Position numbers and translations under genes: made by a program
The notes under the pieces: model-generated
What the model saw: the letters and a program-made list of their open reading frames with translations, nothing else
The model's database searches: none
What the model was told of the DNA's origin: nothing
Source of the DNA: Myxococcales bacterium
GTDB lineage: Bacteria; Myxococcota_A; UBA796; GCA-2862545
Reading direction: 5' to 3'
DNA: 60,537 bases
Assembly: GCA_019634415.1 (NCBI GenBank)
Contig: JAHQVJ010000050.1
Coordinates: forward strand, 1-60,537
Part shown: positions 26,851-44,779 of the stretch, one piece after another
Layout of the letters: every line of letters starts with the position of its first letter
Position numbering within the stretch: the stretch's first letter is position 1

Positions 26851-26892
26851 CGGGCCTCCAGTGGTCCGCTCCCTAAGGTGGCGAGCACCCGA

Positions 26893-27504: not shown

Positions 27505-27540
27505 CGGCCCCTCCCCACCCCTCCTATCGGACACGACGGA

Positions 27541-27552
27541 ACGAGAACTCGT
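27541..27552. promoter_or_regulatory. Inverted repeat in the sigma/kinase divergent region
   Basis: ACGAG-AA-CTCGT, a perfect 12-base dyad in the 138-base gap between the ECF sigma gene and the kinase gene. The surroundings (about 27540-27600) are richer in A and T than the flanking genes, as expected for a promoter region. No confident -35/-10 pair was found. Confidence 0.35.
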
Positions 27553-27642
27553 AAAATGCACAGCCGGATTTGTGACAGGTCATACATTCCCTTCCTTCCC
27601 GATGTTGCAGGCCCTCAATCACACGTCTCGCGGGAGCCCCCG

Positions 27643-30600
27643 ATGATCGACGAAACTCCGCTGGAGGAAGCCGAGAGGCTGAAGCGATCGGCCATACGCC
27701 GAGCAACAGAAGGAGAAGCGCTCGACACAATCGCCAGCGAGCTGGGGATCGTGCGCTTGACGCTTCAGCGCTGGCTGGAGGAGGGGTTGCACCCTCCGTC
27801 CGCATCGAGGGACGACACCGTCTCGATGCCGGGCAGCCCCCGCGCCCCGAACCACGAGTCGCCGCCGCTGCTGGATCACACCGGACCCGACGGTCGCTTC
27901 CAACGCCTCGAGCTCCTCGGAGAGGGCGGCATGGGAGCCGTCTACCGAGCCTGGGACTCCCAGTACAGCTGCGCCGTGGCGCTGAAGATCGTGCGACCGC
28001 ACCGCACCATGCGGCTCGAGCGCTTCAAGGAGGAATTTCGTCGCGCCGCCTGTCTGTCCCATCCGAACCTGGTCACCATGTACGACCTCGTCGTCGTGCA
28101 GGACCGTCCGTGCTTCTCGATGGAGCTCATCGACGGCGCTCCGCTGCGGACCACCCTGCCCTTGGCACCGAGTCGCGTGCACGACGTCGCGGTCCAGCTG
28201 TTCGCGGGCCTCACCTGCCTGCACGACCACGGCATCGTGCACCGCGACATCAAGCCCGCCAACGTGCTCCGCGAGAGCACCGGGCGGGTGGTGATCGTGG
28301 ACTTCGGGCTCGCCGTGTTGGTGGATCAGACCAAGCCCAGCTTCGGTGGAACGCTGCCGTACATGGCGCCCGAGCTCTTCCAGCGGTCTGGGCAGCTCCA
28401 TGCCGCAGTGGACGTCTACGCCGCGGGGGTGCTCCTCGCGGAGCTCCTCCTCGGCCGCCCCTGGCGACCTGACTACCACGGCCAGCCCGTGCCTGAGGAG
28501 TGGCTCGACGCGATGGGGACGGGCGAGCTGGCTGACGTCGTCCGTGCCTGCCTCGAGCCCGACCCACGGGTGCGACCGCTTGCGGGCGCGCTCCTCGGCC
28601 GCCTGCCAGGGCGCAAGGCGCACGTCTCCCGCCCGCGCCCACGCGCCGGGTTCGTGGGGCGCACCGCTCAGCTCGCTTGGCTGGACGCCCACGTGCAGCG
28701 AGGGTCCTTCGTGCGGGTGGCGGGCCCGGGCTCCATCGGCAAGTCGGCGTTGCTCACCCATGCCCTGGACAAGCGCCACACCATCTCCAGCGGCTGCCAT
28801 CCGGCCGAGACCGTGCCGTTCAACGGATTCGACCGAGCCATGGGCGTGCTCGCACGCCGCCTGCGCCCCGAGTCTCCCGAGCGCATCACGCTGTCCGCGG
28901 CGTTTCCCGCCTTCGGGACAGCACGGCAGCGCCGCGGGGCCGTGCCGCTGATGGAGGACCTCGCGGCGGCGCTGGCACGCGCCATGGACGACGCCGAGGT
29001 GAGCACCCTGTGGATCGACGATGCCCAGTGGCTGGACCGCGACAGCACCCGGCTGCTACGCGCCCTCGTGGAGCTGTCGGATCGGGCCGCCGTGGTCGCG
29101 ACCCATCGGCTGCTTCCCGAGGACCATCCGCTCCGCCGCGAGGGATGGTTCGTCGAGTCCGAGGTGTGCACCCTGGGACCGATGGATCGACGGGACGCCT
29201 CCACCCTGGCCCACAAGCTGGTGGACGACGATCCGGAGGGGCTGCTCGATCTGGTCGGCCCCCACCCGTTCCGCCTGGAGCAGTTCGCTCCGCACTGGCA
29301 GCGAGGCGAGCGCGTGGTTCCGCCGCTGGCGGAGCAGGTGCAAGCGGAGCTGTCGGGCCATCCCGCCGCGATGGAGATCCTCGAGCTGGTGGCCGTGCAC
29401 GGTGCCCCCCTGCCGGTGCACGTGCTCGCGAGCCCCTTCCTGGACCAGCGCTTTCCCAAGGCGCTGGCGGTCCTGACCCGCTCGCGCCGTCTGCTGGCCT
29501 TCCACTCCACCCAGGAGGTGGCCTTCACCCACGACACCACGCTGGATGCGCTCCTGGAGGGGCTCGATCCGGCCACGCGTCGCAGCCACCACGAGCTGCT
29601 GGCGCGGGCGTTCCAGCGACGCGACCCCTCCGATCCGGGCAGCGCAGCCCGCCACTTCGCCCTGGCCGGCAACCTGCAGGCCGCCCACGCCCCCGCCGTG
29701 CGCGCGGCCCGAGACGCCGAAGCGGTCTTCGCCTGGGCTCGGGCAGCCGACTTCTACGGGCTCGTCGCGAGCCGCTCCGACTTCGACGCCGACACCCGCA
29801 GGGCCTACGCCGTGGCCCTGTCTCGCTGCGGCCTGGCCGAGCAGTCCGCACGCCAGCACCTCGCGCTGGGCACCCTCGAGGACCGTCGCCGCGCAGCGGA
29901 GCTGCTCGTGTCGTGCGGGGCCTTCGAGGAGGGCGACCGAGTGCTCGGAGAGGTCCTCCGAGACCATGGACTGGCGGCCCCGACGCTCGACGCGGGATCA
30001 CTGCTCCGCGTGGCCTACTGGTCGGTACGGGCCCGTCTGTCTTCGTGGCGCCCCAGGCGGCGCTCCGAGCGACGCCTCGAGCCCGTCGTGGACGCGCTGT
30101 GGACCGTGACGGGCGCCCTGGGGCAGTTCGACTCCGTGCGAACGCTGGCCTACCACGGCCAGCACCTCGTGCTCGCCAAGCGCAGCGGCGACGTCGGCCG
30201 CTGGGCACGCGCCGCCGCCCTGCTGGCCTCCTACGCCAACATCGATCCCGAGTCGCCGCGACATCACCAGATCGACGCCGCCATCGACGAGCTGCTCCGC
30301 ACCTGCGACGACCCCGATCAGCGCGCGTGGGTGCTGGTCAGTCGCGGCTACCGGGCCGTCATCACCTCCCGCTTCGCCGACGCCCTGCACCACTTCGATC
30401 GGGCCGAGGCCATCTACCGGAAGACGCGAACGGTGCGATGGGAGCGCACCCTGGGGTGGACCAACCGCCTCTTCGCGCTGGTCCACCTGGGTCGACTGGA
30501 GGAGGCCAAGCGGGAGTATCGCGTGCTGATCCGACGCTTCGAGGAGCTCGGCGACCGTGCCTCCATCGCCATCGTCGAGGCTGGAGCCGGCGCGTTCGCA

Positions 30601-31140
30601 GCGCTGGCCGACGCCGATCCGCAGCTCGCCGTGGCTCGCCTGGACCGAGGCCGGTCCCTGCTCCCCGAGCAAGCGCCGGTGACCTTCACGTTCCTCGACC
30701 TGTACGGGCGCGTGGCGGTGGATCGCTACGTGGGCGACCTTCAGCGAGCGCGTGAGCGGGTGCAGCAGGCGTGGCCGGCGCTGCGCGCCTTCCGTTGGTT
30801 TCGCATGCCCGCCCACGTGCTGGCGTACCTGTACTGCGTGACCCATCCCACGCGCCGAAACGTGCGCTGGGCCCGACGACGCCTAAGCCGGCAGCCGTCG
30901 CCCTACTCCCGCACGGCGCGGGACGAGCTCGCGCTGCTCCATGGAGACGACCCCCAGCACGTCGGCCGCCTCGAGGAGGCCGAGCGGCAGGCACGCCAGG
31001 CCGGGATCGCAAACGCGGCCGATGCGTTCGCGCTGCGCCGGGCTCGAGCCACCGAGGGCGACACCGACGCGGTGATCCGAGACGTCGCGCGACGAGGGGT
31101 GGAGGATCCTCCCTCGTTCCTGCGCCTGTGGGGGGCCTAG
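27643..31140 (+). CDS. HTH-Ser/Thr protein kinase-AAA/STAND ATPase-TPR signalling protein
   Basis: A 1,165-residue soluble signalling protein. Residues about 10-48 form a resolvase-like helix-turn-helix (LDTIASELGIVRLTLQRWLE). The kinase domain (about 86-320) is complete: glycine loop LGEGGMGAV, Lys115 in VALKIV, HRDIKPANV (200-208), DFG 220-222 and the GTLPYMAPE segment. A P-loop ATPase follows (GPGSIGKS, 361-368; Walker B LWIDDAQWLD), then about 600 residues of TPR-like helical repeats. This resembles the PknK-type kinase-ATPase-TPR plan, but the N-terminal HTH is unusual. GGGAG precedes the ATG. It is divergent from an ECF sigma gene, its most likely substrate. Confidence 0.92.
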   Translation: MIDETPLEEAERLKRSAIRRATEGEALDTIASELGIVRLTLQRWLEEGLHPPSASRDDTVSMPGSPRAPNHESPPLLDHTGPDGRFQRLELLGEGGMGAVYRAWDSQYSCAVALKIVRPHRTMRLERFKEEFRRAACLSHPNLVTMYDLVVVQDRPCFSMELIDGAPLRTTLPLAPSRVHDVAVQLFAGLTCLHDHGIVHRDIKPANVLRESTGRVVIVDFGLAVLVDQTKPSFGGTLPYMAPELFQRSGQLHAAVDVYAAGVLLAELLLGRPWRPDYHGQPVPEEWLDAMGTGELADVVRACLEPDPRVRPLAGALLGRLPGRKAHVSRPRPRAGFVGRTAQLAWLDAHVQRGSFVRVAGPGSIGKSALLTHALDKRHTISSGCHPAETVPFNGFDRAMGVLARRLRPESPERITLSAAFPAFGTARQRRGAVPLMEDLAAALARAMDDAEVSTLWIDDAQWLDRDSTRLLRALVELSDRAAVVATHRLLPEDHPLRREGWFVESEVCTLGPMDRRDASTLAHKLVDDDPEGLLDLVGPHPFRLEQFAPHWQRGERVVPPLAEQVQAELSGHPAAMEILELVAVHGAPLPVHVLASPFLDQRFPKALAVLTRSRRLLAFHSTQEVAFTHDTTLDALLEGLDPATRRSHHELLARAFQRRDPSDPGSAARHFALAGNLQAAHAPAVRAARDAEAVFAWARAADFYGLVASRSDFDADTRRAYAVALSRCGLAEQSARQHLALGTLEDRRRAAELLVSCGAFEEGDRVLGEVLRDHGLAAPTLDAGSLLRVAYWSVRARLSSWRPRRRSERRLEPVVDALWTVTGALGQFDSVRTLAYHGQHLVLAKRSGDVGRWARAAALLASYANIDPESPRHHQIDAAIDELLRTCDDPDQRAWVLVSRGYRAVITSRFADALHHFDRAEAIYRKTRTVRWERTLGWTNRLFALVHLGRLEEAKREYRVLIRRFEELGDRASIAIVEAGAGAFAALADADPQLAVARLDRGRSLLPEQAPVTFTFLDLYGRVAVDRYVGDLQRARERVQQAWPALRAFRWFRMPAHVLAYLYCVTHPTRRNVRWARRRLSRQPSPYSRTARDELALLHGDDPQHVGRLEEAERQARQAGIANAADAFALRRARATEGDTDAVIRDVARRGVEDPPSFLRLWGA

Positions 31141-31189
31141 AGTCCGAGGGCGCGGACCACCGTGGCAAGATCGCGGGCGCGAGGCCCCC

Positions 31190-31735
31190 ATGACGACCGA
31201 TCTTCGGCACCTACTGGATGGATGGCGGCGGATCCTGGCTGGCGAGGCATCGTCTGCCGAGCGCTCCTCCACGCTGCAGGGCCTCGAGGCGCTGTTCGCC
31301 GCCGAGGAGCCTCGCGTGGCCGCGACCTGTGAGCGCCTCCTGGAGGACGCGGCGACCGCCCGCCGCGTCGCGGAGCAGCTGGCGACGACGGCGTGGCGTT
31401 CCCTGCACGAGCTGGAGGACCTCGATCGGCAGGCGTTCTCCCTCTGGATGAGCCAGCTGACCCTGGACCTGTGCACCCAGGCCCTCCGCAGCAGACCCGA
31501 CCCCCTCGTGGAAGACGGCGTGACGACGCGTCGTCTCGCAGACCGAAGTCGATGGCTGAAGCAGGCCAGCGACGACCTGTCCCCCGCCGCCCAGGAGATC
31601 GCCTACGCCCGCTACGTCCTGCGGCTGCCCGTCGAGGCCATCGCCCGAAGCTTCGGTCGCTCCACAGACGACGTCGCCGCAGCACTGCGCGATCTCCGAG
31701 ATGCCTGGAAGGGCCACTCTGTGGAAGAGCCGTGA
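31190..31735 (+). CDS. Degenerate ECF sigma-factor-like protein
   Basis: A 181-residue protein with the length and layout of an ECF sigma factor but weak core motifs. Region-2-like sequence: LFAAEEPRVAATCERLLEDA then AEQLATTAWRSLHEL and FSLWMSQLTLDLCTQALR, following the usual spacing of Leu/Ala/Trp. Region-4-like sequence: LSPAAQEIAYARYVLRLPVE then AIARSFGRSTDDVAAALRDL. The next gene starts inside its stop codon (GTGA) and begins with a zinc anti-sigma motif, which supports the sigma reading. It could instead be an atypical anti-anti-sigma or adaptor; moderate certainty. Confidence 0.7.
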   Translation: MTTDLRHLLDGWRRILAGEASSAERSSTLQGLEALFAAEEPRVAATCERLLEDAATARRVAEQLATTAWRSLHELEDLDRQAFSLWMSQLTLDLCTQALRSRPDPLVEDGVTTRRLADRSRWLKQASDDLSPAAQEIAYARYVLRLPVEAIARSFGRSTDDVAAALRDLRDAWKGHSVEEP

Positions 31736-33313
31736 AGCACCTGCGCCGCGACCGCCTGGTCCCCCACCCCTCCCCGCCACGCACCGACGACGAGCACGTC
31801 CACCTGGCAGGCTGTGTGGAGTGTCGCGTGAGGGCGCTGCTCCTGGCGAGCCATCTCACGGAGCACGCACCACAGTCCCCGATCGCCGGCCCGTCGATGG
31901 AGCGTGTGCGTCGCACCATCACACGGTGGGTACAGGCCTCGGGCACTCCGGAGCTTCGGGGCGGACAGTTCGGAACCGTGGAGCAGGCGCCCGACGGTCT
32001 GGTGTGGCGCCATGCGGCCCTTCAGGCTTCGCCCCAGGACCTCGAGCGTGCCGAGCGCATCGACGCCCTCGCCCTTCCAGGGGTCGTGCCGTGGCAGCTT
32101 CAAGGGCGTGACGTCGTCTCCGACTGGCTGCCAGGCACCACCCTCGACGAATGGCGCAGCACCGCGGAGCTCGGCGACACCGTCACCACACTCAGGGTGC
32201 TGCAGGACGTCGCCCACACCCTGTCCAGACTCCACCAGGCGGGCCTGTCCCACGGCGGGATCGCAGCAGATCGCGTGCTCGTCTGTCAGGGCCGAGGCTT
32301 TCTCCTGCTCGCCGGGCTGTCGTCGGCCGAGGGCCCGACCGAGGTGCACGCCTTCGGTGAGCTGTGCCACGAGCAGCTGCCCCCCACCACCACAGCACTG
32401 CTTCCGCCGCCCGGCACGCCGCTGCACGAGCTCGGTCCGGCCCTCACCACGGTGGGGCTCGACGAGGCCTGGCACACGGCAACCCACGCTCCCGACGCGC
32501 TCGAGCCGAACACCGTCGTGGATCGCTTTCGGGTGGTGGGGGAGCGCGGAAGAGGCGCGATGGCAGTGGTCTACGAGGTCCAGCACCGGCTCCTCGGAAC
32601 GCGCCACGCCATGAAGGTGGTGCTCGGCAGGAGCGTCATGGTGCGACGGCGCTTGGTGCGCGAGGGCCGGCTGCAGGCGCGCCTCGGTCATCCGAACCTC
32701 GTTCCCGTCACGGATCTGATCGACGTGTTCGGCGAGCCAGCGCTGATCTTGCCCCTCATCGACGGCCCGAGCCTCGCCGAGGCCCTCGAGCACAGCACCC
32801 CTGACCGCATCGAGGCGCTCGCCCTGTTCGCCGGTGTCGTGGCAGGCGTGTCGTACGCCCACGACAACGGCGTGGTCCGCCGGGGCCCGGGTCACCGACT
32901 TCGGCCTCGCCAAGGCCTTGCACGGAGAGATGGGCGACCGGTTGACGAAAACGGACACCCACCTCGGCACCCTCGCCTACGCCGCTCCCGAGCAGCTGTC
33001 GGACGCTGCATCCGTGGACCAACGGGCCGACCTGTGGGCACTGGGTTGCCTGCTCTTCGAGCTCTCGACGGGAACCCTCCCCTTCATCGCACCAGACGGC
33101 TCCAGAGGGCCGCTGGATGCGGCCACGCTGACCTTTCCGGCTCCGGTCCACCCCGACGTGCCAGGAATGGTGCGCGGGCTGCTCCAGCGCGATCCGGCAG
33201 CCCGCACCTCCTTGCAGACGATCCGCACCACGCTCGACGCCATGGCCCCCTCACAGCGCAGCCCTGGGCGTTTGGCCCGATCGGTGCTTCATCGCGACCG
33301 TCAACGGAGTTGA
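31732..33313 (+). pseudogene. Zinc-finger anti-sigma-like, pseudokinase, Ser/Thr kinase gene broken by a deletion
   Basis: The GTG at 31732 overlaps the previous stop. The N-terminus has HLAGCVEC (His24, Cys28, Cys31), an H-x3-C-x2-C zinc anti-sigma motif. A degenerate kinase-like domain follows (about 75-240; GLSHGGIAADRVLV where HRD would be). A second kinase domain begins FRVVGERGRGAMAVVYEV with Lys in HAMKVV. Near 32877-32890 the frame changes: sequence through SYAHDNGVV is in one frame and VTDFGLAKAL onward, with GTLAYAAPEQL, is in another. Compared with the kinase at 27643, about 41 bases holding the HRDxKPxN loop are missing. As sequenced the product would be truncated. It may be a real lesion or an assembly fault in GC-rich DNA. 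Confidence 0.82.
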
Positions 33314-33323
33314 TGGTCGCGAT
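33291..33323 (+). terminator. Stem-loop at the end of the kinase gene
   Basis: ATCGCGACC (33291-33299) pairs with GGTCGCGAT (33315-33323), and TCAAC pairs with GTTGA inside it around a GGA loop, giving a 14-pair stem with one G-T mismatch. The kinase stop codon (33311-33313) lies within it. There is no T-run, so factor-independent termination is uncertain; it may instead protect or attenuate transcripts before the next gene. Confidence 0.45.
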
Positions 33324-33365
33324 CAGACCCATCTTCTCCAAAAAGCCATAGACAGCGGGACCCAA

Positions 33366-33417
33366 GTGACGTTTATGAAATCGTCACCCATTCGTGTCAT
33401 CCACTTGTTGTACAACA
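33366..33417. promoter_or_regulatory. Two inverted repeats upstream of the TIR-CHAT gene
   Basis: The 133-base gap before the TIR-CHAT gene is less GC-rich than its neighbours. It holds GTGACG-N10-CGTCAC (33366-33387, spacer TTTATGAAAT) and the perfect palindrome TGTTGTACAACA (33406-33417), the latter ending 30 bases before the start codon. Both are good operator candidates for regulation of the 33447-42481 genes. No regulator gene of an obvious matching family adjoins them apart from the sigma and kinase genes. Confidence 0.5.
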
Positions 33418-33446
33418 CCCAGTGAATGCCAGCTGGCGGGAGACAG

Positions 33447-36400
33447 ATGGACAGGCCCTCGTTGTTGGTCCTCACCGTGGGATTCACCCAAGCTGGACGT
33501 GCCCTCGCCGCCGACCTCGGCAAGGCCCTGTACGACCGCATCTGCCGACCCCTCGACGAGCCCCTCGCCTCGGGGCCAGGCGTGTCGGTCCGGATCGACG
33601 TGGATCCCGAGAGCGTCGACCCCCACGCCGCAGACATGACCGTCATCGTCGCCGTGCTCGATCGTCAGCCGTTCCTCTGGCGAGGCAGGCGCAGCAATCA
33701 GGTCGTGAGCACCCTCGAGGGCTGGCACAGTCCGCCCAGTACCTACGTGCTGCCCCTCGTCACCCACGCCTCCTGGTCCCGGCTCGAGGATCGGCTGCCC
33801 GCCGCACCGCTGACGACGGAGCTCGAGGACCGCGACGACGGGACGTCGACGCGAGAGCACACCCTCGACGAGATCGTGCTCGCCTTGATTCGCGCCCTGA
33901 GTCCCCGCCAGCAGGAGGGCTCTCGGCTCTTCCTGTCGTTCAGCGGCGCCGACGCCGAGGCCCAGCAGGCGGCCGAGGACGTGCACGAGTACGTCAGCCG
34001 CAAGACCACCGCCCCCGAGCCCTACCTCGACGACGCCGACAAGGTGCTGCCAGGAGCGCGGCCACGCCGAGACCGCATCGGCAACGTGCTCGCCAGCAGC
34101 GTGTTCGTGGCGTTCGTGGGGGATCGCTACAGCGACGCCACGGAGTGTGTGCAGGAGCTGCTCGTGGCCAAGGCCCACGGCGTGCCCACCCTCCTCGTGT
34201 ACGCGCTGCAGGACGGCCAGCGACACGCCAGCGCCTACCTCGGCAATGCGCCCTCGCTGGTCTGGCGCGACGATCCTCGGGTGGTCGCCTCCCGCGCCGC
34301 ACTCGAGTGGCTGAGGGCCGAGGTGTTCCGCCGTGAAGCCGCCCGGATCCGGAACGCCACGGCCCACTCCGAGTCCAGCGTGCACGTGCTGGTCCGACCG
34401 CCGGAGGTGCTGGACCTCGCCCAGGGACCGCTGACACCGAGTCCGGGTGGGACGCTGGTGATCCACCCCGATCCCGAGCAGCGAGCGGCGGATCGGGAGG
34501 TGCTCCGGGGCATGAGCCCACGCCTGCGTCTCGTCACACCCACCACGGCCTACCGCCGTAGACTGGCCAACAACGATGGCACCGCCGACGTCGCCGCACC
34601 CCTCGACGGAGCGCAGGTGGCGCTGTCGCTGTCGGGTGGCGCCGAGCTGGAGCTGCCCAGCGGGCTGCTGATCCAACACGTCGAGGATGCCACGGTCTAC
34701 TTGGCGCGATGTCTGGTGTCGGCGGGCGCACCCATCGCCTACGGCGGTATCTTCAAGCTCGACAAGGGCTACACCGAGCTGCTCGTGCGGCTGATCGCCG
34801 ACTACAATCAGACGGCCTCGGACGACTGCGACCTGCTCCACAGCTACCTCGCCGCCCACCACGACCCAGCCGAAGCCAATGGCGTGGACGTCCAGCTGCA
34901 TCACCTGGCAGCCCCCGACTCTGGTGCACTGCTCCCTCCCCCCGAAGGAACGCCGAGCCCCGCGCGCATGGCCCTGCACTACTCCGACATGCGTCGCGTG
35001 ATGGCCGAGCGATGCTTCGCTCGAGTGATCCTCGGGGGGGCGGTCACCCCCAAGCGAGCCGACGATGATCGAGCCGGGTACCGCGGACGCTTTCCGGGGG
35101 TGGTGGAGGAGGCCTGGCGCACCCTCCAGGTGAAGCGCCCCCTCTACGTCGTCGGGGGATTCGGTGGGGCCAGCGGCCTGGTGGCCCACATCCTGTGCGA
35201 GCAGACCCCTCCGTCCGCGCTGATGGACGGCACCTGGTCCAGGCACCGGTTCTTCCGCAAGCGGGCAGCCGCCATCGACGCCGAGCCCGATCGCGAGCTG
35301 CTCGGGCTCCCCAGCAGCATGGTGGAGCTCGCCGAGCAGATCCATCGACTGGGGCAGGGCCTCCTGGGCCCCGACGCCGAGGCGATGAACGGCTTGACCG
35401 CAGCCCAGAATCGGCAGCTGATGGAGACCACCGATCCCCTCACCATCGCCAAGCTGGTGATGCGGGGCCTCGTTCGGGTCCACCAAGCGCAGCAGGCCGC
35501 GACGGGCGCCCTGTCCGTGGAGCTCGTACAGGGAGACGTCACCCACGCCCCCAAGCTGGACGTGCTCAGCATCGGGACCTTCTCCAATGTGCCGATGGCC
35601 GGAGCCGGCGAGCAGATCAACCGCAAGCTGCTGGGCCTGGCGTCCGCCAGCCGGTCTGGCGACGGCACCCAGGTCGTCCCTGTGGGCGATGCCGACCTCG
35701 ACGCCGACTGGTTGTTCATGGCCGACATGGGGCAGCTCGATCCCACCGCCCTCCCCGCGGCCGCCGGGCAAGCCGCTCGGGCCACCGCAGAGATGGCGCT
35801 TCGACACGGGTTCCGTCGGATAGGTGTGGTGACCTTCGGCGGCAGCCTGGCGGACGACCTGACGACGCAGGTGCGCGCGATGGTGTCGCACCTTCGCTCC
35901 CTGAGCCAGAAGACCACCATCGTGTGGTGCGAGCAGGATCCGGGTCGCTACGAGGTGCTGCGGAAGGCACTGACGAGCGAGGTCGACGTGCAGCTGTCCA
36001 CCTTGGATCTCGCCAAGGTGGTGCCGAGCTCGCCCCCGACCGCGGGTCCCCTCGGTGGTCTGATGCTCCATGTCACTCGAGGGCCCTCTCACCTCAACGT
36101 GACCGTGGCCCCTCCCGCCGACCTGGGCGCCCCGCTCCTCCACCAGGTACCCATGACCGACGCCGAGATCGTGGCGTTGAGCGAGGGCGGCGGCGTGGAG
36201 CAGCGCACCACGCCCCCGAGCGAGTGGGTGGCGCGGCGCGGCCAGGAGCTGGCGGATCGCTTGTTCGCCGGCAACCTCCAGCTGATGGGGCTCCTCGGGA
36301 AGCGTCCCATCGAGGTGGTGCACGACGAGCAAGCCTCCAAGCTCCCCTTCGAGATGCTGTGCACGCAGCCCCCCGACAAGACCACACCGCCTCCCGCGAT

Positions 36401-37088
36401 CCGAGGTGGACTCAGTCGCCGCCTCGCGGTTCGGAACACCTCCATCGACCAGCTGCTACTGCCGCCAGCCCGGCGAGGCAAGCTCCGGATCCTGTTGGTG
36501 GCGAACCCCACCCCCGTCCTGGCGCCGCTTCCCGCCGCCGACCTAGAGGCGAACGCGGTGGCACGCATCCTCGAGGGGCTCGACCAGCGAATCGAGCTCG
36601 AGATCCTGAGGCACGGAGAGGCCACGGTGCAGGCCGTGCAGGAGGCGCTCAGGCGCAGCGACGTGCTGCACTACTGCGGTCACGCGTTCTACGACGGCCC
36701 CACCCCCGACGAGAGCGGCCTCGTGCTCGCCGGCAAGGCACGCCTCACCCTGTCGAACCTGGAGCGTGGCGGCGCGATGCCCCGCCTCGTGTTCGCCAAC
36801 GCCTGCGAGTCTGCGCGCGTGCGTGGCGTCGACGAGGCGCGAGGAGCGAGCGCCTTTGCCGAGTTCTTCCTGCGGGGGCGGGTGGAGGCCTACATCGGAA
36901 CACTCTGGCGAGTGGCCGACCGAGCCGCAGCAGAGTTTGCCTCAGACGCATATCACAGCCTAGCGGCGGGCAACTCCCTCCAGGAAGCCGTTCGAACGGC
37001 GAGGCGCCGACTCCTAGAGAGCGATCGCTCCGATTGGGCGAACTACGTCTTGTACGGAAATCCCCACATGACCCTTACCCACACGTAG
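33447..37088 (+). CDS. TIR-SLOG-macro-like-CHAT protease protein
   Basis: A 1,213-residue soluble protein; the ATG at 33447 has GGGAG four bases upstream. Residues 1-150 look like a degenerate TIR-like fold. A TIR domain follows (159-295: LFLSFSGADAE, DKVLPGARPR, and Glu237 in ECVQEL at the position of the NADase glutamate). A SLOG-like Rossmann domain spans about 388-600 (VALSLSGGAELELP, PIAYGGIFKLDKGYTE, YVVGGFGGASGLVA). Residues about 704-860 resemble a macro/leucyl-aminopeptidase-N fold (DVLSIGTFSNVPMAGAGEQI). The C-terminus is a CHAT caspase-like protease (about 925-1213) with His1079 (YCGHAFYD) and Cys1120 (FANACESAR). Known families suggest NAD-derived nucleotide sensing or hydrolysis controlling proteolysis. 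Confidence 0.88.
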   Translation: MDRPSLLVLTVGFTQAGRALAADLGKALYDRICRPLDEPLASGPGVSVRIDVDPESVDPHAADMTVIVAVLDRQPFLWRGRRSNQVVSTLEGWHSPPSTYVLPLVTHASWSRLEDRLPAAPLTTELEDRDDGTSTREHTLDEIVLALIRALSPRQQEGSRLFLSFSGADAEAQQAAEDVHEYVSRKTTAPEPYLDDADKVLPGARPRRDRIGNVLASSVFVAFVGDRYSDATECVQELLVAKAHGVPTLLVYALQDGQRHASAYLGNAPSLVWRDDPRVVASRAALEWLRAEVFRREAARIRNATAHSESSVHVLVRPPEVLDLAQGPLTPSPGGTLVIHPDPEQRAADREVLRGMSPRLRLVTPTTAYRRRLANNDGTADVAAPLDGAQVALSLSGGAELELPSGLLIQHVEDATVYLARCLVSAGAPIAYGGIFKLDKGYTELLVRLIADYNQTASDDCDLLHSYLAAHHDPAEANGVDVQLHHLAAPDSGALLPPPEGTPSPARMALHYSDMRRVMAERCFARVILGGAVTPKRADDDRAGYRGRFPGVVEEAWRTLQVKRPLYVVGGFGGASGLVAHILCEQTPPSALMDGTWSRHRFFRKRAAAIDAEPDRELLGLPSSMVELAEQIHRLGQGLLGPDAEAMNGLTAAQNRQLMETTDPLTIAKLVMRGLVRVHQAQQAATGALSVELVQGDVTHAPKLDVLSIGTFSNVPMAGAGEQINRKLLGLASASRSGDGTQVVPVGDADLDADWLFMADMGQLDPTALPAAAGQAARATAEMALRHGFRRIGVVTFGGSLADDLTTQVRAMVSHLRSLSQKTTIVWCEQDPGRYEVLRKALTSEVDVQLSTLDLAKVVPSSPPTAGPLGGLMLHVTRGPSHLNVTVAPPADLGAPLLHQVPMTDAEIVALSEGGGVEQRTTPPSEWVARRGQELADRLFAGNLQLMGLLGKRPIEVVHDEQASKLPFEMLCTQPPDKTTPPPAIRGGLSRRLAVRNTSIDQLLLPPARRGKLRILLVANPTPVLAPLPAADLEANAVARILEGLDQRIELEILRHGEATVQAVQEALRRSDVLHYCGHAFYDGPTPDESGLVLAGKARLTLSNLERGGAMPRLVFANACESARVRGVDEARGASAFAEFFLRGRVEAYIGTLWRVADRAAAEFASDAYHSLAAGNSLQEAVRTARRRLLESDRSDWANYVLYGNPHMTLTHT

Positions 37089-37189
37089 CACGAATTTGTC
37101 TCACAGAAGATTAGCGTGCTCACGTTTGCCGAGATACCATAGTTGAACCCGCCAACCTTGGGTTGCCCTATTTTCTTGCAGGGGGGGCG

Positions 37190-37444
37190 ATGGCATGGAC
37201 GGTAGACATGATCGTCGAGCAGCTGGAGCAGTGCATCACCCGGTCCGAGGCCGCAGGTCAGACCTCGACCATCCGGCACTTGGCCCTCACGGAGCTCGTC
37301 GAGCTCCTGCCCGATGTGGCCTCGAAGCTCGCAGAGATGGACGACCTCCCCGCGACCACGGAGAACTGCCGACGGCGAGAGGCGCTGACCAAGCGTATGA
37401 ACGAGCTACGGCTGGAGGCCCAGCACTATCTGGGGCCCGCTTGA
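37190..37444 (+). CDS. Small helical protein of unknown function
   Basis: An 84-residue acidic, helix-predicted protein (MIVEQLEQCITRSEAAG, LALTELVELLPDVASKLAEM, ALTKRMNELRLEAQHYL) with GGGGGG just before the ATG. I do not recognise a family. It lies between the TIR-CHAT gene and the hydrolase-lipoxygenase gene, in a lower-GC stretch with about 100 free bases on each side, so it probably has its own promoter. A small adaptor, inhibitor or CHAT substrate would fit its place; that is speculation. Confidence 0.62.
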   Translation: MAWTVDMIVEQLEQCITRSEAAGQTSTIRHLALTELVELLPDVASKLAEMDDLPATTENCRRREALTKRMNELRLEAQHYLGPA

Positions 37445-37568
37445 CGTTATTGCGCGAGGGATTCCCTTCACCCACACCTCGCAAGCAGGCCGGCCCTACG
37501 ATCAGCCTCTGAACGTCGACCTAGGCCGCCCGTTTGACGGTGGATTTAGTTGCATCTAGGGTGACCCG

Positions 37569-40500
37569 GTGGAGGCGCGATTGCATGAACTCGACCTCGG
37601 CGAGGGCGTCACGCTGCGCTCGACTGCGGGTGTGGACGTGGGAGGCACGACTCGCGGCCCGCGCAGCACCAACGATGCCGCTGCCTGGTTCACGCTCCAC
37701 GCGGCTCTCGCCGGTGCTGGCCTCGAGGCCGTACGCGATGTGACCCTCGCTCCACGAGCCGCGCCGGGCGACGGCACGCGGTCGGGGGCAGATCCAGGTG
37801 TCGAGCTCGATGTGGTCGTCGAGGAGGGAGCAGACGCCATCGTGCTCCTGGACCGAGGAGGGCGGCTGACGTGGCACCTGGGCGAGGTCGTGCCCACCCC
37901 GGCGGAGCCATCCCGCACCCGTCGCTTCACCCTGCAATCGGAGGCCGAGGAGCCCTCCCGCTTCGCCCTCGACGCGCTCCGCACCATCGTGTTCCGCTAC
38001 GTCGCGGAGCGCGTGGCCACCGCCACCGCCACCGCATGGGTGGCGGGCTGGGAGGCCGACGTCCCGCAGGGACCGATCGTCGTGGAGGGCGCCGACGTGG
38101 AGCGCTGGCGTCGCGTGCCCGACCTGTCCTCGCTGCAGATCCAGCCCGGGGCCCGAGTGCTGCTTCTGCTGCACGGGACCTTCTCGAGCACCGTGGGCAG
38201 CTTCGGCCAGCTGTGCGCCCCCCCTGGTCGCAGCGTGCTGGAGGGCTGGCTCGAGACCTACGATCACGTGATCGGATTCGATCATCGAACGCTGTCGGTG
38301 GGGCCTGCCGACAACGCCCGAGCCCTGGTGGAGGCGCTGCAGCAAGCAGAATGGCCGCAGGGCGTGGTGCTGGACCTGGTCTGCTTCTCCCGTGGCGGGC
38401 TGGTGGGCCGGTGGCTCACGGAGCACGTGCTGCCCACCCACGCCCCTCACCTCACCGTTCGCAGGGCGCTGCTGGTGGGTGCCACCACCTCGGGCACCCT
38501 GCTGGCCAGACCCGAGAACTGGAAGGCGTTCCTCGACCTCGCCACGAACCTGAGCATGGGAACCTGTCGCCTCCTGACGGTTGCAGCTCCTCAGTCGGCG
38601 GTCGCCCTCGAGGTGCTCCGCGCGAGCATCGAGGGGCTGTCGGTGCTCGCCAAGGCCCTGGCGAACCAGGTCCTCGAGGCGGGAGCGGTGCCCGGCCTGC
38701 AGGCCATGGACCCACACGGCGAGGGAGTACGGTCCCTCAACGCAGGCCCCTCCCCCGCAGGACGCCCCGAGGCTGGGTACGCGGTCGTCAGCGTGGACTT
38801 CGAGCCGACGCTGTTCCGCAACGACCCGTCGGCCACCGGGCTGTCCCGACACGTGCTGCTCTGGCTCGCCGACACCTTCGTGGACGGCCTCTTCGGCGGC
38901 GAGCCCAACGATCTGGTGGTGGACAACGCCGCCAGTCGACGAATGCATCCCGATCTGGGACAGCCGCAGCAGCTGGAGCTGCCGCGCGGCGCCGCGGTAC
39001 ACCACCTGAGCTTCTTCTCCTCGGCGTGGTGCCTGCAGGCCCTGCGCTGGCTGCTCCACCCCTCCGAGCAGCCTGCGCTACCCACTCCCACGCAGCGCCT
39101 GACCCCTCCTCTGGCCGACGACGCGATCGCGGCGCTCCTCGCCGAGGCCAGGGCGTCGTCGCACACGCATCATCTGCGGATCCTGCGCCGACGCAGTCCC
39201 GAGCTGCAGGGCTTTTGGCTGGGCCCCGAGCTGTCGGCCGAGCCGCTGACGGACGCCCCCCTCCTCACCCTCACCCAGCACGACGAGGCCGTCGCGACGG
39301 ACCTCGTCACACCTGCGACGCTGTGGTGCGAGGGGCACGATCACCGCACGCTGTGGGTGTTCCGCTGGTCCCTTCCGCAGCTCGCCTCCATCGAAGACGC
39401 CCACCTGGGCGTGCGCGTGCACCCCGATCGGGTGCACCCCACCTCCTTGGGCCTCCTGAGGTGTGCCATGCCCGAATCCCCGCCCGACGCAACCCGACGA
39501 TCTCCTTCCCTCCTCGTGCCCGACGACTGGGTCACCCGGAGCACGATCCTCGAGCTGGAGCTCGGCAGACCAGGGGAAGAGACGAGATCCCTGGAGCGCC
39601 ACCGCGCTGGCGGACTCACCTGGGACGAGCTCGGCATCCCACCGCTGTCGGAGGTGGTTCCCGCAGACGTCTACGAGGCCCTGGACCTGGATGCCGTCGA
39701 GCAGGAGATCCTGGAGCTCGAGGACCAGGTCCGCACCCTCGAGCGAGCGCACCGTGGTGAGACCACCCGGGCGGCGACCTCTCGCCTCGGCAAGCTGCGC
39801 AACAAGCTGCACTCGATGGCGCAGGGCGTGCACTCGGCGCTCGGGGCGCTCCAACGCGTGCGCGACGACCTGGGGGTGGAGTTCTACGAGATCGTGGGCC
39901 TGTCGGGCCCTCAGCGGGTGGGCCGCCTCGCGGTGTTCGCGCACATGGTCGCCCTCGAGGTGGGCGATCTGGTCGACGACGCGCGGCTGTCGGCCACCTG
40001 GTACGACCCGCTGCCCTGGGTGTGGCAGGGCGGTCCTGTGCCGCGTCGCGCCAACCTCGGGGCCCTGGGCACCTACGCGCTGTTCCCCCGAGGCATGAAC
40101 CGCAGCGTCTACGGCACCTACCTGATGTACCTGTTCGCCTACGACGAGATGGCCCGATCCGCGGGCCCCCCCGCCTTTGGCGAGCTCGACGAGGTCGCCG
40201 CCCGCAGGGCCTACCGCGAGTCGCGCTTCCCCGACGCCCCCGCGCGCTCCACCCACCCCGATCCCCACAGCGACGTGTGGGTCTGCGACCGCCTCCTCAA
40301 CGGTGTGGCCACGCCTTCCTTCCGCGCTGACTCGCGCTACCCGGGCGCGCGGGTGCTGGTGCTACGGTGGTCGGACCGTCGCGCCCCCGAGAACCGACTG
40401 GGCCAGCGCCTGTACCTGCCCGATCTGACGGTGGTGTGCGGCGAGCACCAGGGCGGCCTGTCGCTGCAGCGCATCGTGCTGTCCTACGCCGACGGCCCCA

Positions 40501-41522
40501 CCCTCGACGTCGCGCCCACCGACGAGGTCCTGTGGGCGCGCGCCAAGGTCGTGCTGCGCGGACAGCTCGTCCTGTACGGCGAGCTCACACCGCACCTGGC
40601 GCGCGGCCACCTGATGTGCGAGCGCATGCAGGGCGTGGTGCACCACGCACGGCAGCGGCTGCCGAACGAGGCCAGGGCCCTGTCGCTGCTCACCCCCTTC
40701 CTCGACGGAGCCGACGCCATCAACCGTGTGGGGGACCTGCTGATCCTCGAGGACGACGGCGCCATCCCCGCGGGCACTCCCTTCGACGGTGCCGCCATCG
40801 CCGCGCGCCTCGCCCGCGATCTGGGAGCCGTGGACTGGTGGGGCTTCGCACCGCGCGCGCGGCAGCTCGAGCAGGACCGCTACGCGCACGCGGCCAACGT
40901 CTTCTGGACCATGGTCACGGAGTGGGTGGCCGACGAGCTGCCCGACACCGCCATCGAGCCTGCCCACTGGCAGGCCATCAACGCCGCCCTGGACGACTGC
41001 GTGGTGCAGTACCACCCCCACGACGGCGACCCCGAGGCCCGCTGGCTCGACGACAACGAGCACGCCAAGGCGATGGTCCGTGGGCAGCCCCACGGCAGCG
41101 ACGCCTTCACCCGCCTCACCTCCGCCGACGATCTCCGTCAGCTCGTGGCGTTCGTGGTGTTCCACGCCACCTTCCAGCACAGCTGGGTCAACGATGCCCA
41201 GTGGGACGAAGGCGGAGACCCCTTCTTCGCCCCGATGGCCACTCGGCTGCGCATCGACGAGCGCCCCACGGCCTCGCTGCGGGCCTGGACGAATGCCGCC
41301 GGCCCCGCCTTCGTGGATGCCTGCTACCAGCGCCTCATCGCCTTCGCGCTGACCCACTTCGACTCCGGGTACGTGTGGTTCGACGACCTCGAGCCCCGGG
41401 TACCTGCCAGCTTCAAGGAACGCGTGGAGGCCCTACCAGCCCCCTTCGTGCATCCCGAGGCAGACGGACCGCCCGACGTACGCCTGCGCAAGGACCACAT
41501 CCGCTCCAGGATGAACTCATGA
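37569..41522 (+). CDS. Alpha/beta-hydrolase fused to lipoxygenase
   Basis: A 1,317-residue cytosolic fusion from a GTG start. Residues 1-190 are a beta-rich N-terminal domain. The hydrolase core has LLLLHGTFSS (198-207) and nucleophile Ser274 in VCFSRGGLVGRWL. Residues about 695-1317 are a lipoxygenase: DRLLNGVATPSFR (907-919, the family's LNG-x-NP region), LYLPDL, WARAKVV (989), HLARGH with His1009 and His1014, the helix pattern to DAINRVGDLLILEDDGAI, and HSWVN with His1204 and Asn1208. These four match the family's iron ligands in spacing; the C-terminal Ile ligand is replaced by Ser. Predicted role: release a polyunsaturated acyl chain and dioxygenate it. ATGA overlap couples it to the next gene. 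Confidence 0.88.
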   Translation: MEARLHELDLGEGVTLRSTAGVDVGGTTRGPRSTNDAAAWFTLHAALAGAGLEAVRDVTLAPRAAPGDGTRSGADPGVELDVVVEEGADAIVLLDRGGRLTWHLGEVVPTPAEPSRTRRFTLQSEAEEPSRFALDALRTIVFRYVAERVATATATAWVAGWEADVPQGPIVVEGADVERWRRVPDLSSLQIQPGARVLLLLHGTFSSTVGSFGQLCAPPGRSVLEGWLETYDHVIGFDHRTLSVGPADNARALVEALQQAEWPQGVVLDLVCFSRGGLVGRWLTEHVLPTHAPHLTVRRALLVGATTSGTLLARPENWKAFLDLATNLSMGTCRLLTVAAPQSAVALEVLRASIEGLSVLAKALANQVLEAGAVPGLQAMDPHGEGVRSLNAGPSPAGRPEAGYAVVSVDFEPTLFRNDPSATGLSRHVLLWLADTFVDGLFGGEPNDLVVDNAASRRMHPDLGQPQQLELPRGAAVHHLSFFSSAWCLQALRWLLHPSEQPALPTPTQRLTPPLADDAIAALLAEARASSHTHHLRILRRRSPELQGFWLGPELSAEPLTDAPLLTLTQHDEAVATDLVTPATLWCEGHDHRTLWVFRWSLPQLASIEDAHLGVRVHPDRVHPTSLGLLRCAMPESPPDATRRSPSLLVPDDWVTRSTILELELGRPGEETRSLERHRAGGLTWDELGIPPLSEVVPADVYEALDLDAVEQEILELEDQVRTLERAHRGETTRAATSRLGKLRNKLHSMAQGVHSALGALQRVRDDLGVEFYEIVGLSGPQRVGRLAVFAHMVALEVGDLVDDARLSATWYDPLPWVWQGGPVPRRANLGALGTYALFPRGMNRSVYGTYLMYLFAYDEMARSAGPPAFGELDEVAARRAYRESRFPDAPARSTHPDPHSDVWVCDRLLNGVATPSFRADSRYPGARVLVLRWSDRRAPENRLGQRLYLPDLTVVCGEHQGGLSLQRIVLSYADGPTLDVAPTDEVLWARAKVVLRGQLVLYGELTPHLARGHLMCERMQGVVHHARQRLPNEARALSLLTPFLDGADAINRVGDLLILEDDGAIPAGTPFDGAAIAARLARDLGAVDWWGFAPRARQLEQDRYAHAANVFWTMVTEWVADELPDTAIEPAHWQAINAALDDCVVQYHPHDGDPEARWLDDNEHAKAMVRGQPHGSDAFTRLTSADDLRQLVAFVVFHATFQHSWVNDAQWDEGGDPFFAPMATRLRIDERPTASLRAWTNAAGPAFVDACYQRLIAFALTHFDSGYVWFDDLEPRVPASFKERVEALPAPFVHPEADGPPDVRLRKDHIRSRMNS

Positions 41523-42481
41523 ACGCCATGGACAAGCTCGCGGAGCTCTGGGCACTCGTGCAGCAGGATCCCTACGACGAGGTGGACCTGCCGGAGCAGC
41601 TCGGGGAAGAGCTGGTGCGCGGGCTGGCGCTTCTACAGGACAAGCACACCTACATGGCCGAGGCGCTCACCCACGAGGGCGACGTCGTGCCGCCATCGCG
41701 CGCAGACCCGGCACGCATCGACGACCGGCTGACCAACCGGAAGCTGTTCCACGGATGTGGCTCGTGCGCCACGGTGACCTGGGTCCCCCTGGGCCAGCAC
41801 GCCTACACGGGCTTGTTCCGCGATGGAGCCTGCGGGCTGCTGCGAGCCTCGCTGGCCGCCACGCAGGAGACGATCGTGAGGCGCCTGCGGCCCGCACGGT
41901 TCTCGCCAGGGTTCGGGCTGAAGCTGTTCGCAGACGGCGACGGCCCCACCGCCAACGTGCTGGCGATGCACCGGCTCGAGGGCGTCGATCCCACCCCTCG
42001 CGACTTCTTCGACTGGAGCGTGACCACCACGCTGGCCAAGCCCAGACCTCGCCGCGCGCTCCCGCGAGACGTGGCCAAGTGGCACGCGCTGATCGGCATC
42101 TTCCAGGGAGCCCTGCGCTGGGTGGATCCCACGTCGAGGCCACGCGACATCTTCACGCTGGACCTCACGCCGCTGGCCGCCGTGAACGCCGATGGCACCC
42201 GGGTGCCCGAGCCGCGGGCCCCGACCTCGCTCACCTTCGAGCCCTCGGACGAGGTGTGCCGGGCCTGGTTGCGAACCCGGCCCAACGCCGACTTTCGGAT
42301 CCGGCTGGCGGAGCTGCAGGAGCACATGACCGAGGCCGCAGTGCTCTACCGCGTGCTGGACGAGCTGGATCGGCCGGTCGCCGAGCTGACGCTGACGTCG
42401 GCGTTCGTGGCCTCGCCCTACGGCGACCAGCAGCTGTTCTTCCAGCACCACATGGGGGCGTCCGTCGGCACTCCGACGTGA
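41519..42481 (+). CDS. Catalase-fold-like protein (possible hydroperoxide-metabolising partner of the lipoxygenase)
   Basis: A 320-residue protein overlapping the lipoxygenase stop by four bases. The middle resembles the catalase beta-barrel: His78 in NRKLFHGCGS (distal-His position), GLFRDGACGLLRAS (98-111, like the catalase VRFS strand), FSPGFGLKLF (128-137) and TANVLAMHRL (144-153). The late segment FRIRLAELQEHM to QQLFFQHH resembles the barrel end of small catalase-like proteins. The proximal Tyr-Arg heme motif expected next is not seen; the protein stops before it. Catalase-related proteins act on lipoxygenase products in corals and cyanobacteria, so the pairing is suggestive. Heme binding is uncertain. 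Confidence 0.55.
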   Translation: MNAMDKLAELWALVQQDPYDEVDLPEQLGEELVRGLALLQDKHTYMAEALTHEGDVVPPSRADPARIDDRLTNRKLFHGCGSCATVTWVPLGQHAYTGLFRDGACGLLRASLAATQETIVRRLRPARFSPGFGLKLFADGDGPTANVLAMHRLEGVDPTPRDFFDWSVTTTLAKPRPRRALPRDVAKWHALIGIFQGALRWVDPTSRPRDIFTLDLTPLAAVNADGTRVPEPRAPTSLTFEPSDEVCRAWLRTRPNADFRIRLAELQEHMTEAAVLYRVLDELDRPVAELTLTSAFVASPYGDQQLFFQHHMGASVGTPT

Positions 42482-44779
42482 TCACCTCACGACGGTCACC
42501 TGCACCTCGCCCGCGCGACCCGCTGGCCCCTGTCGCCCATTGGGCCCTCGTGCCCCCTGACCGCCGGTGCTCCCGCGATGTCCATCGAAGGTGCGACGCG
42601 TGCGAACACGTCCGTCGTCGTCGCGCTCTTCGCACTGAGCGCCCTGACCACCGAGGCCGGCCTTGCCCCCCGCGCCACCCGAGCCCCCCGGACCGCCGTA
42701 GCCCCCCGCGCCACCCACGCTGCGGAAGCGAGCGAGCACCCAGGCCTCCAAGGCATCACATCTCTCGTCGCAGTGCAGCGCCACCGTGATCCGACCTCCG
42801 TCTCCGCCCATGCCGCCGTCACCGCCTGGACCTCCGTCCGATCCATCGGCGCCATCGCCGCCCTTCCCCCCGTTTCGGTCGCAGCTGCCCGGCGCTCCAG
42901 GAATGCCATCCGCGCCGTCCTGGCCCGCCACGCCCGGTGTGCCCCTGGACCCAGCTCCACCCACCGACATCACCGAGAACGCGGGATCGGACTGCTCCAC
43001 CACGGCCGCCCAGCCGTGCTGCTCGGAGCCCGGCCGACGCAAGCCGATCAGCAGGCGATCGTGGCTGATGGCGTAGACGTCGAGCGCCAGCTCGGGCCCG
43101 GCAGCCCCCGTGGACCCCACATGGACCAGCGATCGCACGGGCGCGAACACCACCGGCAGCTCGATGGGCAGCGCCGTGCCGCGCACCTCGAGATCCACGG
43201 CCAGCGCGTCGCCGCTCCGTCCCAGCGCCACCACCTCGTCCAGGGTGAGGCGCTGCCGCACCCGGAGCGCACCATCCGTCAGGGTCACCCACGGGTGGTC
43301 CACGGCCAGCTGCTCCTGCGGCACACAGGGCGTCGGCTCGAGGGGCGGGACGTGCACACACAACGGTACGCCCTGCTCGTAGCCCACGAAGTCCAGCGCC
43401 AGCGCGGCCAGCGACACCACGGGCTCCCGCGTCGCCTCCCCCTCGTCGTTCACCACCAGCAGCGTCGCCGACGACGCACGCGGGCTGGCCACCACCTGCA
43501 CGCTCCGAATCCCCGGATGCTCCGACGCGAGTCCACCACCCGTGAGCCGCGCGCCCTCCGACACGGCAACCCGTCCGTCGTCCAGCACCTGCCGGAGCAC
43601 ACCCTCCGGATCGTCGCGCACCGCCGCGAAGGGAGACCGCGCGATGCGAGCGCGCACCAGCGCCACCGTGGCCTCGTGGCGCAGCTCCGCGTCGGGCAGG
43701 CGCAGCCGCAGCATCACCAACGCAGACTCGTCGAGCGCCGCCAGGCGCTGCGGGGTCACCTGCTCCCCACGCCAGCGCCCCTCGTCGGCCGCCAGGCTGT
43801 CCGCCAGCAATGCGCTGCTCTGCGACGCCTCCGCCTTCCGCAGCGCCTTGCGGGCCTTCGCCACTCGCTTCTTCTCGAGCGAGATCGACACCGGTCGCTG
43901 GGCGACGGCCTCGATCACGGGCACGGAAGACCCCTTGCCGAGCAGTCGCGTGGCCACCTTCAGCACCTGCGAGAAGCGCTGCGTGCGCACCTCGGCCGTG
44001 GCGTCGGCGTCGAAGCGCGCGAGGCACGCCAGGTAGGTCTGCACCGACAGCTCCCCGCGCTGCAGGGCGCGCAGCAGCACGCGAGGCACGGCTCCGTCCC
44101 CCGCCGCCACGCGCTCCCCGTCGGCGCGGTCCGGATCGCAGGCCGCGAGCTGCGGCTCGTCCGTGCCCAGGAAGTCCAGCAGCGCCGCCGCTCGCAGCCG
44201 CTGCGTGCCCTCCGCCTCGTCGGCCCTCGCCTCTCCGCCGCCGTAGATCTGCAGCGCCTCGAGCTCGCGCCCCCGGACCGTGCGGATCAGGTGACGCTCC
44301 TGCGGCGAGACCTCGAGCCGCAGGCCGTCGATGAGCAGCTCCGCCACGGCGTCGAGCATGTCGAAGAACACGTCGGGGGACTCGGCGATGTTGCCCATCA
44401 CCTCGTCCGAGAGCACCACCTCGGCGCTCTGCGTGCTCACCACGCGCACGTTCAGCGCCATCAGCGAGCCCTGTAGCCCCACGATGCTGCCGAAGAGCAG
44501 GTAGTCGGCCCCCACCAGCTTGCCCGCCTCCACCGCCGTCGCCCGATCCACCAGGCCGGTCTGGCTCAGCTCGAGCTCCGCGAGGATCGCCTGGAGCCGA
44601 CTGCGCTCCACCAAGGTGAGCGACGAGGCCCCCGCCAGCTTGGCCACGAGCACGTTCGCGGCCCCCGGGCCCGCACCGTCGAAGCGCGTCTCCCCAGTGT
44701 GGTTCTGCAGATCGGCGATCGCCAGTGTGGGCGACGCGATCACGAGATTGCACCAAAACAACGAAAGAACAAGGAGCAC
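42482..44779 (-). CDS. CsgG/curli-assembly-like exported protein with collagen-like C-terminus
   Basis: A 765-residue exported protein. The GTG at 44779 has GGGGGA three bases before it and starts right at the hydrophobic leader; a GTG at 44809 lacks a ribosome site. Residues about 15-130 follow the CsgG/FlgO pattern: LAIADLQNHTG, LTLVERSRLQAILAELELSQ and KLVGADYLLFGSIVGLQGSL. A mostly helical middle (about 180-340) and a beta-rich part follow. The last 130 residues are Gly-rich with collagen-like G-x-y triplets (GSRGTPGVAGQDGADGIPGA) broken by a Cys-containing segment. Such tails may trimerise or form fibres. The gene is divergent from a small membrane protein and TetR gene, with a palindrome between. 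Confidence 0.82.
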   Translation of the reverse strand: MLLVLSLFWCNLVIASPTLAIADLQNHTGETRFDGAGPGAANVLVAKLAGASSLTLVERSRLQAILAELELSQTGLVDRATAVEAGKLVGADYLLFGSIVGLQGSLMALNVRVVSTQSAEVVLSDEVMGNIAESPDVFFDMLDAVAELLIDGLRLEVSPQERHLIRTVRGRELEALQIYGGGEARADEAEGTQRLRAAALLDFLGTDEPQLAACDPDRADGERVAAGDGAVPRVLLRALQRGELSVQTYLACLARFDADATAEVRTQRFSQVLKVATRLLGKGSSVPVIEAVAQRPVSISLEKKRVAKARKALRKAEASQSSALLADSLAADEGRWRGEQVTPQRLAALDESALVMLRLRLPDAELRHEATVALVRARIARSPFAAVRDDPEGVLRQVLDDGRVAVSEGARLTGGGLASEHPGIRSVQVVASPRASSATLLVVNDEGEATREPVVSLAALALDFVGYEQGVPLCVHVPPLEPTPCVPQEQLAVDHPWVTLTDGALRVRQRLTLDEVVALGRSGDALAVDLEVRGTALPIELPVVFAPVRSLVHVGSTGAAGPELALDVYAISHDRLLIGLRRPGSEQHGWAAVVEQSDPAFSVMSVGGAGSRGTPGVAGQDGADGIPGAPGSCDRNGGKGGDGADGSDGGPGGDGGMGGDGGRITVALHCDERCDALEAWVLARFRSVGGAGGYGGPGGSGGAGGKAGLGGQGAQCEERDDDGRVRTRRTFDGHRGSTGGQGARGPNGRQGPAGRAGEVQVTVVR

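Follow-up and report, generated by a model that had tools for sequence, protein, structure and literature searches.

The region described here lies within a 60,537-nucleotide stretch of DNA from a Myxococcales bacterium (assembly GCA_019634415.1, contig JAHQVJ010000050.1, forward strand), which is referred to throughout as the window. It contains four genes that bring together a putative signal sensor joined to a caspase-like protease, a small open reading frame (ORF), an acyl hydrolase fused to a lipoxygenase, and a catalase-fold protein. All four are on the same strand:

33447..37088, + strand: gene 1, a TIR-SLOG-macro-CHAT sensor-protease of 1213 residues (Pfam; alignment of relatives)
37190..37444, + strand: gene 2, a small ORF of 84 residues (third-position GC 0.85)
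37581..41522, + strand: gene 3, a DUF7362-DUF7379 hydrolase fused to a lipoxygenase, 1313 residues from a TTG start
41519..42481, + strand: gene 4, a catalase-fold protein of 320 residues (fold; alignment of 10 rows)

A preliminary description of this DNA had noted the same four genes and domains. The arrangement was confirmed, and the domain reading was borne out by Pfam, by a match to PDB entry 5ek8, by the fold of gene 4, and by alignments. Genes 3 and 4 are separate reading frames that overlap (gene 4 begins at 41519 and gene 3 ends at 41522). The third-position GC content is 0.85-0.90 in each of the four genes, and the GC content in 2-kb steps is 0.68-0.71 in the region and 0.67-0.73 across the whole contig. 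Gene 3 probably starts at the TTG at 37581, with a GGAGG five bases before it, and entry P0005 of a large protein database corresponds to gene 3 with this start; a GTG at 37569 is a possible alternative. For gene 2, the frame at 37190-37444 was preferred to one at 37195-37512 in another frame, which was dropped on account of its non-coding third-position GC content of 0.48. Gene 2 had no match in Pfam, NCBIfam, or PADLOC, nor any among the fetched loci other than the window. NCBIfam provided nothing for any of the four genes. In PADLOC, genes 2-4 matched nothing, and gene 1 was matched in its CHAT part only, by the BovA model with an E-value of 9e-10. CHAT proteases are common to Borvo and type III-E CRISPR as described in PMC10952713, and the partner genes there differ from those observed here.

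Gene 1 is built from four domains:

33930..34187, + strand: TIR domain (TIR_2, E-value 0.034, under the cut-off; listed in relatives P0035, P0039, P0041, and P0045; alignment)
34602..35420, + strand: SLOG cluster 2 domain (PF18163, E-value 6.4e-33), a predicted nucleotide-signal sensor
35520..35984, + strand: macro-fold domain
36237..37061, + strand: CHAT caspase-like protease domain (PF12770, E-value 8.7e-34)

Eleven relatives align with gene 1 at coverages of 82-100%, and the CHAT residues His1079 and Cys1120 are invariant in all 12 rows. The SLOG and macro domains, which are the signal-binding domain types of Thoeris effectors, are both present; a SIR2 domain was not found by Pfam in genes 1-4. 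When compared with the sequences of solved structures, gene 1 returned nothing at an E-value of 0.1. A full-length relative in G128 (L090) carries one internal TAG.

The regions of gene 3 are as follows:

37668..37940, + strand: DUF7362 region (PF24062, E-value 1e-06)
38160..38741, + strand: DUF7379 domain of the α/β-hydrolase type (PF24096, E-value 1.8e-55; 1.8e-56 in a second scan)
39051..39419, + strand: region common with the C-terminus of P0006 (29% identity over 130 columns; E-value 3e-07, from comparing gene 3 with only two proteins)
39702..41516, + strand: lipoxygenase domain (PDB 5ek8, E-value 1.6e-19; alignments; profile match)

The hydrolase half is tied to gene 1 by the relative P0043, a single protein in which the DUF7362-DUF7379 hydrolase of gene 3 (39% over 445 residues) is followed by the full length of the gene 1 architecture (38%). 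A tree of 21 hydrolase regions, from which P0023 was left out, groups the hydrolase of gene 3 with P0043 and the ceramidase fusion P0006 at 100/99 support and places the DUF7379-CHAT fusions outside this set of three. Of 18 gene 3 homologues, 17 also contain a CHAT domain, the exception being P0006 with its neutral ceramidase. Note that this search is limited to proteins of about 725-2300 residues, and that short hydrolases cannot appear in it. The genome of the window contains one other DUF7379 match over the cut-off, in a 291-residue frame, and four more below it. A CHAT protease is thus paired with an α/β-hydrolase both as neighbors at the locus and as a fusion in P0043, and on the basis of the fusion and the phylogeny the predicted link between sensor and hydrolase is well supported. 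The earlier suggestion of a joint function for the TIR-CHAT protein and the hydrolase gains support from these observations and from the SLOG-CHAT fusions with lipases and amidases described below.

A comparable pairing is known. According to Kaur et al. 2020 (PMC7159879), caspase domains in VMAP ternary systems are always accompanied by a neighboring α/β-hydrolase gene, and the likeness extends to TCAD7 (ternary complex associated domain 7), which adjoins DUF7379 in the relatives P0007-P0009. In a scan of genes 1-4 and nine nearby ORFs, MoxR, vWA, and VMAP components were not found. The word lipoxygenase has no occurrence in the main text of that paper. In the accessible part of PMC8195603, α/β-hydrolases for membrane lipids are listed as effectors, and lipoxygenases are absent there.

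In the lipoxygenase half of gene 3 the iron-ligand positions, His1009, His1014, His1204, and Asn1208, are kept in HxxxxH and HxxxN motifs. Gene 4 displays a catalase fold in which His78, Arg109, Ser111, and Asn146 are invariant in 10 of 10 rows. There is no clear proximal tyrosine for heme, and Tyr301 is kept in eight of the 10 rows. Against the sequences of solved structures, gene 4 returned only ferritin-type rows at chance level. Genes of the lipoxygenase and gene 4 types adjoin at five loci in three genomes, and by this repeated adjacency the predicted link between the two is well supported. The two links, sensor to hydrolase and lipoxygenase to gene 4, meet in gene 3, which is a single reading frame. 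The pairing recalls the coral catalase-related allene oxide synthase-lipoxygenase, in which, according to PMC5617202, a lipoxygenase is likewise combined with a catalase fold and the distal His and the Asn are conserved. In contrast to the coral enzyme, the two activities would here reside in separate, overlapping genes with an added hydrolase. Gene 4 is also shorter and very divergent; Phe takes the place of Thr ahead of the distal His, and a proximal Tyr and heme binding are putative. A second lipoxygenase/gene-4-type pair in the genome of the window (G000:C203:41624-44631, L017) is preceded by two AAA ATPase genes and lacks both CHAT and the hydrolase.

With respect to a substrate, two PfaA-type starts in the same genome, as incomplete reads, score 1088 and 1105 bits against a curated cut-off of 1010. 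Three genes of the PfaD family and 12 matches to desaturases are also over their own cut-offs there. Polyketide enzymes likewise fall in the PfaD family, whose cut-off is exceeded in one of 14 control genomes. The production of polyunsaturated fatty acids is predicted for this genome, and because PfaA/PfaD-type genes are present in it, a polyunsaturated substrate is plausible. Together with the recurrent lipoxygenase/gene-4 adjacency, these genes uphold the lipid-oxidation module that had been proposed earlier.

Lipoxygenase genes occur in less than 0.5% of sequenced bacterial species according to PMC6612559, and in 35 of the 377 genomes of the phylum that were sampled. In those 35 genomes, 54 lipoxygenase places, at most three per genome, were scored with local profiles for gene 1, CHAT, the hydrolase, and gene 4; several of the contigs are only 4.6-7 kb long. 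Other lipoxygenases adjoin AAA ATPases (C203, and C36 of G013) or a patatin (G028), neighbors that fit a regulated role but not the one proposed here. At the last of these (L020, G028:C17) three lipoxygenase ORFs surround a gene for a patatin-like phospholipase, which gives a second neighborhood of lipase and lipoxygenase. One further locus, L183 (G338:C1), has a CHAT-like ORF (E-value 3e-11; only 1e-04 with the gene 1 profile) on the opposite strand, diverging from the lipoxygenase at a distance of ∼1.1 kb.

Relatives of gene 1 are found with other envelope enzymes. A class-3 lipase forms the N-terminal part of the SLOG-CHAT proteins P0045, L036, L037, and L038, and L038 contains a peptidoglycan amidase (amidase-2) as well. 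L036-L038 are 1566-1964 residues long and come from metagenome-assembled genomes titled Verrucomicrobia or Akkermansia. L039 and L043 are fusions of ∼1050 residues composed of an α/β hydrolase, an M17_N/macro-like domain, and CHAT. At four of the nine named full-length gene 1 loci, a likely envelope-acting enzyme is encoded no more than two genes away on the same strand: LCAT/lipase-3 with a TIR gene between (L027), amidase-3 plus a caspase gene (L028), amidase-2 (L031), and a carotenoid oxygenase (L032). A TIR protein lies within two genes at seven of these nine loci, that of L033 being under the cut-off. Pfam ThsB_TIR is over its cut-off for neighbors in L027, L030, L032, and L034, and the PADLOC ThsB models match the TIR genes of L027, L032, and L034, with PDC-M50B equal or better in L032 and L034. 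The gene maps of the fetched loci were made with a simple ORF picker, and the contig of L033 is short.

Taken as a whole, the locus probably encodes a conflict module akin to Thoeris, in which the envelope-attacking effector would be swappable and would here be a lipid-peroxidation cassette. Thoeris systems of types I, II, and IV have been described, the last with a caspase-like protease (PMC12847820). According to PMC12847820 and PMC11204291, TIR-derived ADP-ribose signals are read by SLOG (type I, SIR2-SLOG), by macro (type II, TM-macro), or by a caspase-like protease (type IV). The likeness lies in these domain types and in the ThsB-type TIR genes that adjoin relatives of gene 1. The differences are that TIR, SLOG, macro, and CHAT are here combined in one protein, that the SLOG domain is of cluster 2 and SIR2 is lacking in genes 1-4, and that gene 1 is partnered by an acyl hydrolase-lipoxygenase and a catalase-fold protein.

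The most economical reading, held at about even odds, is an alarm-triggered lipid-peroxidation system. Specifically, the probability is ∼0.5 that in such a Thoeris-like module the TIR-SLOG-macro-CHAT protein senses an alarm and activates the hydrolase-lipoxygenase and gene 4 on the cell's own polyunsaturated lipids. An ADP-ribose-type signal would be made by the TIR domain of gene 1 or by another TIR protein, and would be bound by the SLOG or the macro domain. CHAT might then cut the hydrolase-lipoxygenase, or an inhibitor of it, and so switch gene 3 on. The hydrolase is predicted to free polyunsaturated acids, which could feed the lipoxygenase for peroxidation, and gene 4 may convert the hydroperoxides to oxylipins or keep the harm in check. 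The infected cell would then suffer membrane damage and die, or would release an oxylipin as an alarm; the "lipid-peroxidation death" or "oxylipin signalling" of the preliminary description is likewise hypothetical. A narrower version can be offered only tentatively, and the balance is somewhat against it: an immune system of the swappable-effector family in which enzymatic peroxidation of lipids brings death or a warning, with the alarm passing by way of CHAT to the hydrolase-lipoxygenase and gene 4 making reactive oxylipins. Such a system would be the prokaryotic equivalent of the phospholipase-lipoxygenase-allene oxide synthase cascade and of cell death driven by lipoxygenase.

Several observations weigh against an alarm-triggered lipid-peroxidation system. 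The TIR match of gene 1 is weak, and Glu237, which we take to be the position of the TIR NADase glutamate, is kept in nine of 12 rows and lost in three, among them P0043. A separate ThsB gene was not found among the window genes scanned (part of the window ORFs). The lipoxygenase of gene 3 ends in Ser rather than the usual Ile; its chain end aligns with those of other lipoxygenases, and the C-terminal residue is Ile or Val in six of the nine others aligned. In the phylum sample, 12 of 17 gene-4-type places are without an adjoining lipoxygenase. No envelope enzyme was found among the one or two neighbors scanned at L029, L030, L034, and L035, and since that category was defined after the neighbors had been seen, no probability is claimed for the count of four loci. 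Gaps of 101 and 124 bases separate gene 1 from gene 2 and gene 2 from gene 3, and three of the four terminator-like matches in positions 31000-43000 fall in these gaps on the + strand; by chance 2.4 matches are expected in that scan, and two of the three overlap. No sigma-70-type promoter was found in a scan of the same interval. Finally, of the 54 scored lipoxygenase places, the window itself is the only one with gene 1 or the hydrolase, and no second hydrolase-lipoxygenase fusion was found. A conserved four-gene operon was rejected on this count, and a conserved four-gene system is not supported.

The terminator-like matches and the single occurrence of gene 1 among the 54 places are also what would be expected of two unrelated neighbors, namely a TIR-SLOG-macro-CHAT conflict gene and a hydrolase-lipoxygenase/catalase-like pair making oxylipins for membrane repair or signalling. 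Lipoxygenase/gene-4 pairs do occur without gene 1 in C203, G023 (twice), and G354. The hydrolase half of gene 3, however, belongs to a CHAT-linked family and is closest to the hydrolase fused to the gene 1 architecture in P0043, and thus the boundary between two such units would cut inside one protein. This explanation is considered unlikely, at perhaps half the weight given to the alarm-triggered system. Less probable again is a conflict system of the DUF7379-CHAT kind with the hydrolase as its damaging enzyme; the lipoxygenase and gene 4 would then clear free polyunsaturated acids and hydroperoxides, or be substrates themselves. The catalase-like fold of gene 4 would suit such a function, and by their listed domains P0043 and the DUF7379-CHAT fusions manage without a lipoxygenase. 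Lipoxygenases, however, produce hydroperoxides and do not remove them, and the other enzymes fused to or near relatives of gene 1 or DUF7379 are mostly degradative (lipase, ceramidase, amidase). The least probable alternative is an oxylipin pathway of secondary metabolism or development, in which gene 1 would be a regulatory protease of development and play no part in infection. It would accommodate the PfaA/PfaD-type genes and two Ser/Thr kinase-type ORFs directly upstream, but the ThsB-type neighbors of gene 1 relatives, and the fusions of such relatives with lipases and amidases, speak for conflict systems.

To our knowledge, the bacterial defense effectors known to date hit nucleic acids, NAD, proteins, or membrane integrity, and enzymatic peroxidation of a cell's own lipids is not among them. 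No paper joining a lipoxygenase with a CHAT domain was found in the open literature searched, nor, among the matches listed, a lipoxygenase effector of antiphage or bacterial immunity. If an alarm-triggered lipid-peroxidation system is indeed encoded here, a single locus would join TIR/caspase-type immunity with the chemistry of lipoxygenases. The TIR-SLOG-macro-CHAT core would then represent a platform on which envelope effectors (lipase, ceramidase, amidase, carotenoid oxygenase, lipoxygenase) are swapped, and the rare bacterial lipoxygenases would acquire a testable role.

The two kinase-type ORFs lie on the + strand of the window. The one immediately upstream of gene 1 (31393-33351) is of the Ser/Thr kinase type; its kinase match ends at residue 497 of 652, and a + strand ORF in another frame (32834-33313) overlaps it, an arrangement that resembles a frame break. 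Two genes upstream of gene 1, positions 26218-31140 encode a 1640-residue Ser/Thr kinase with an AAA_16 domain.

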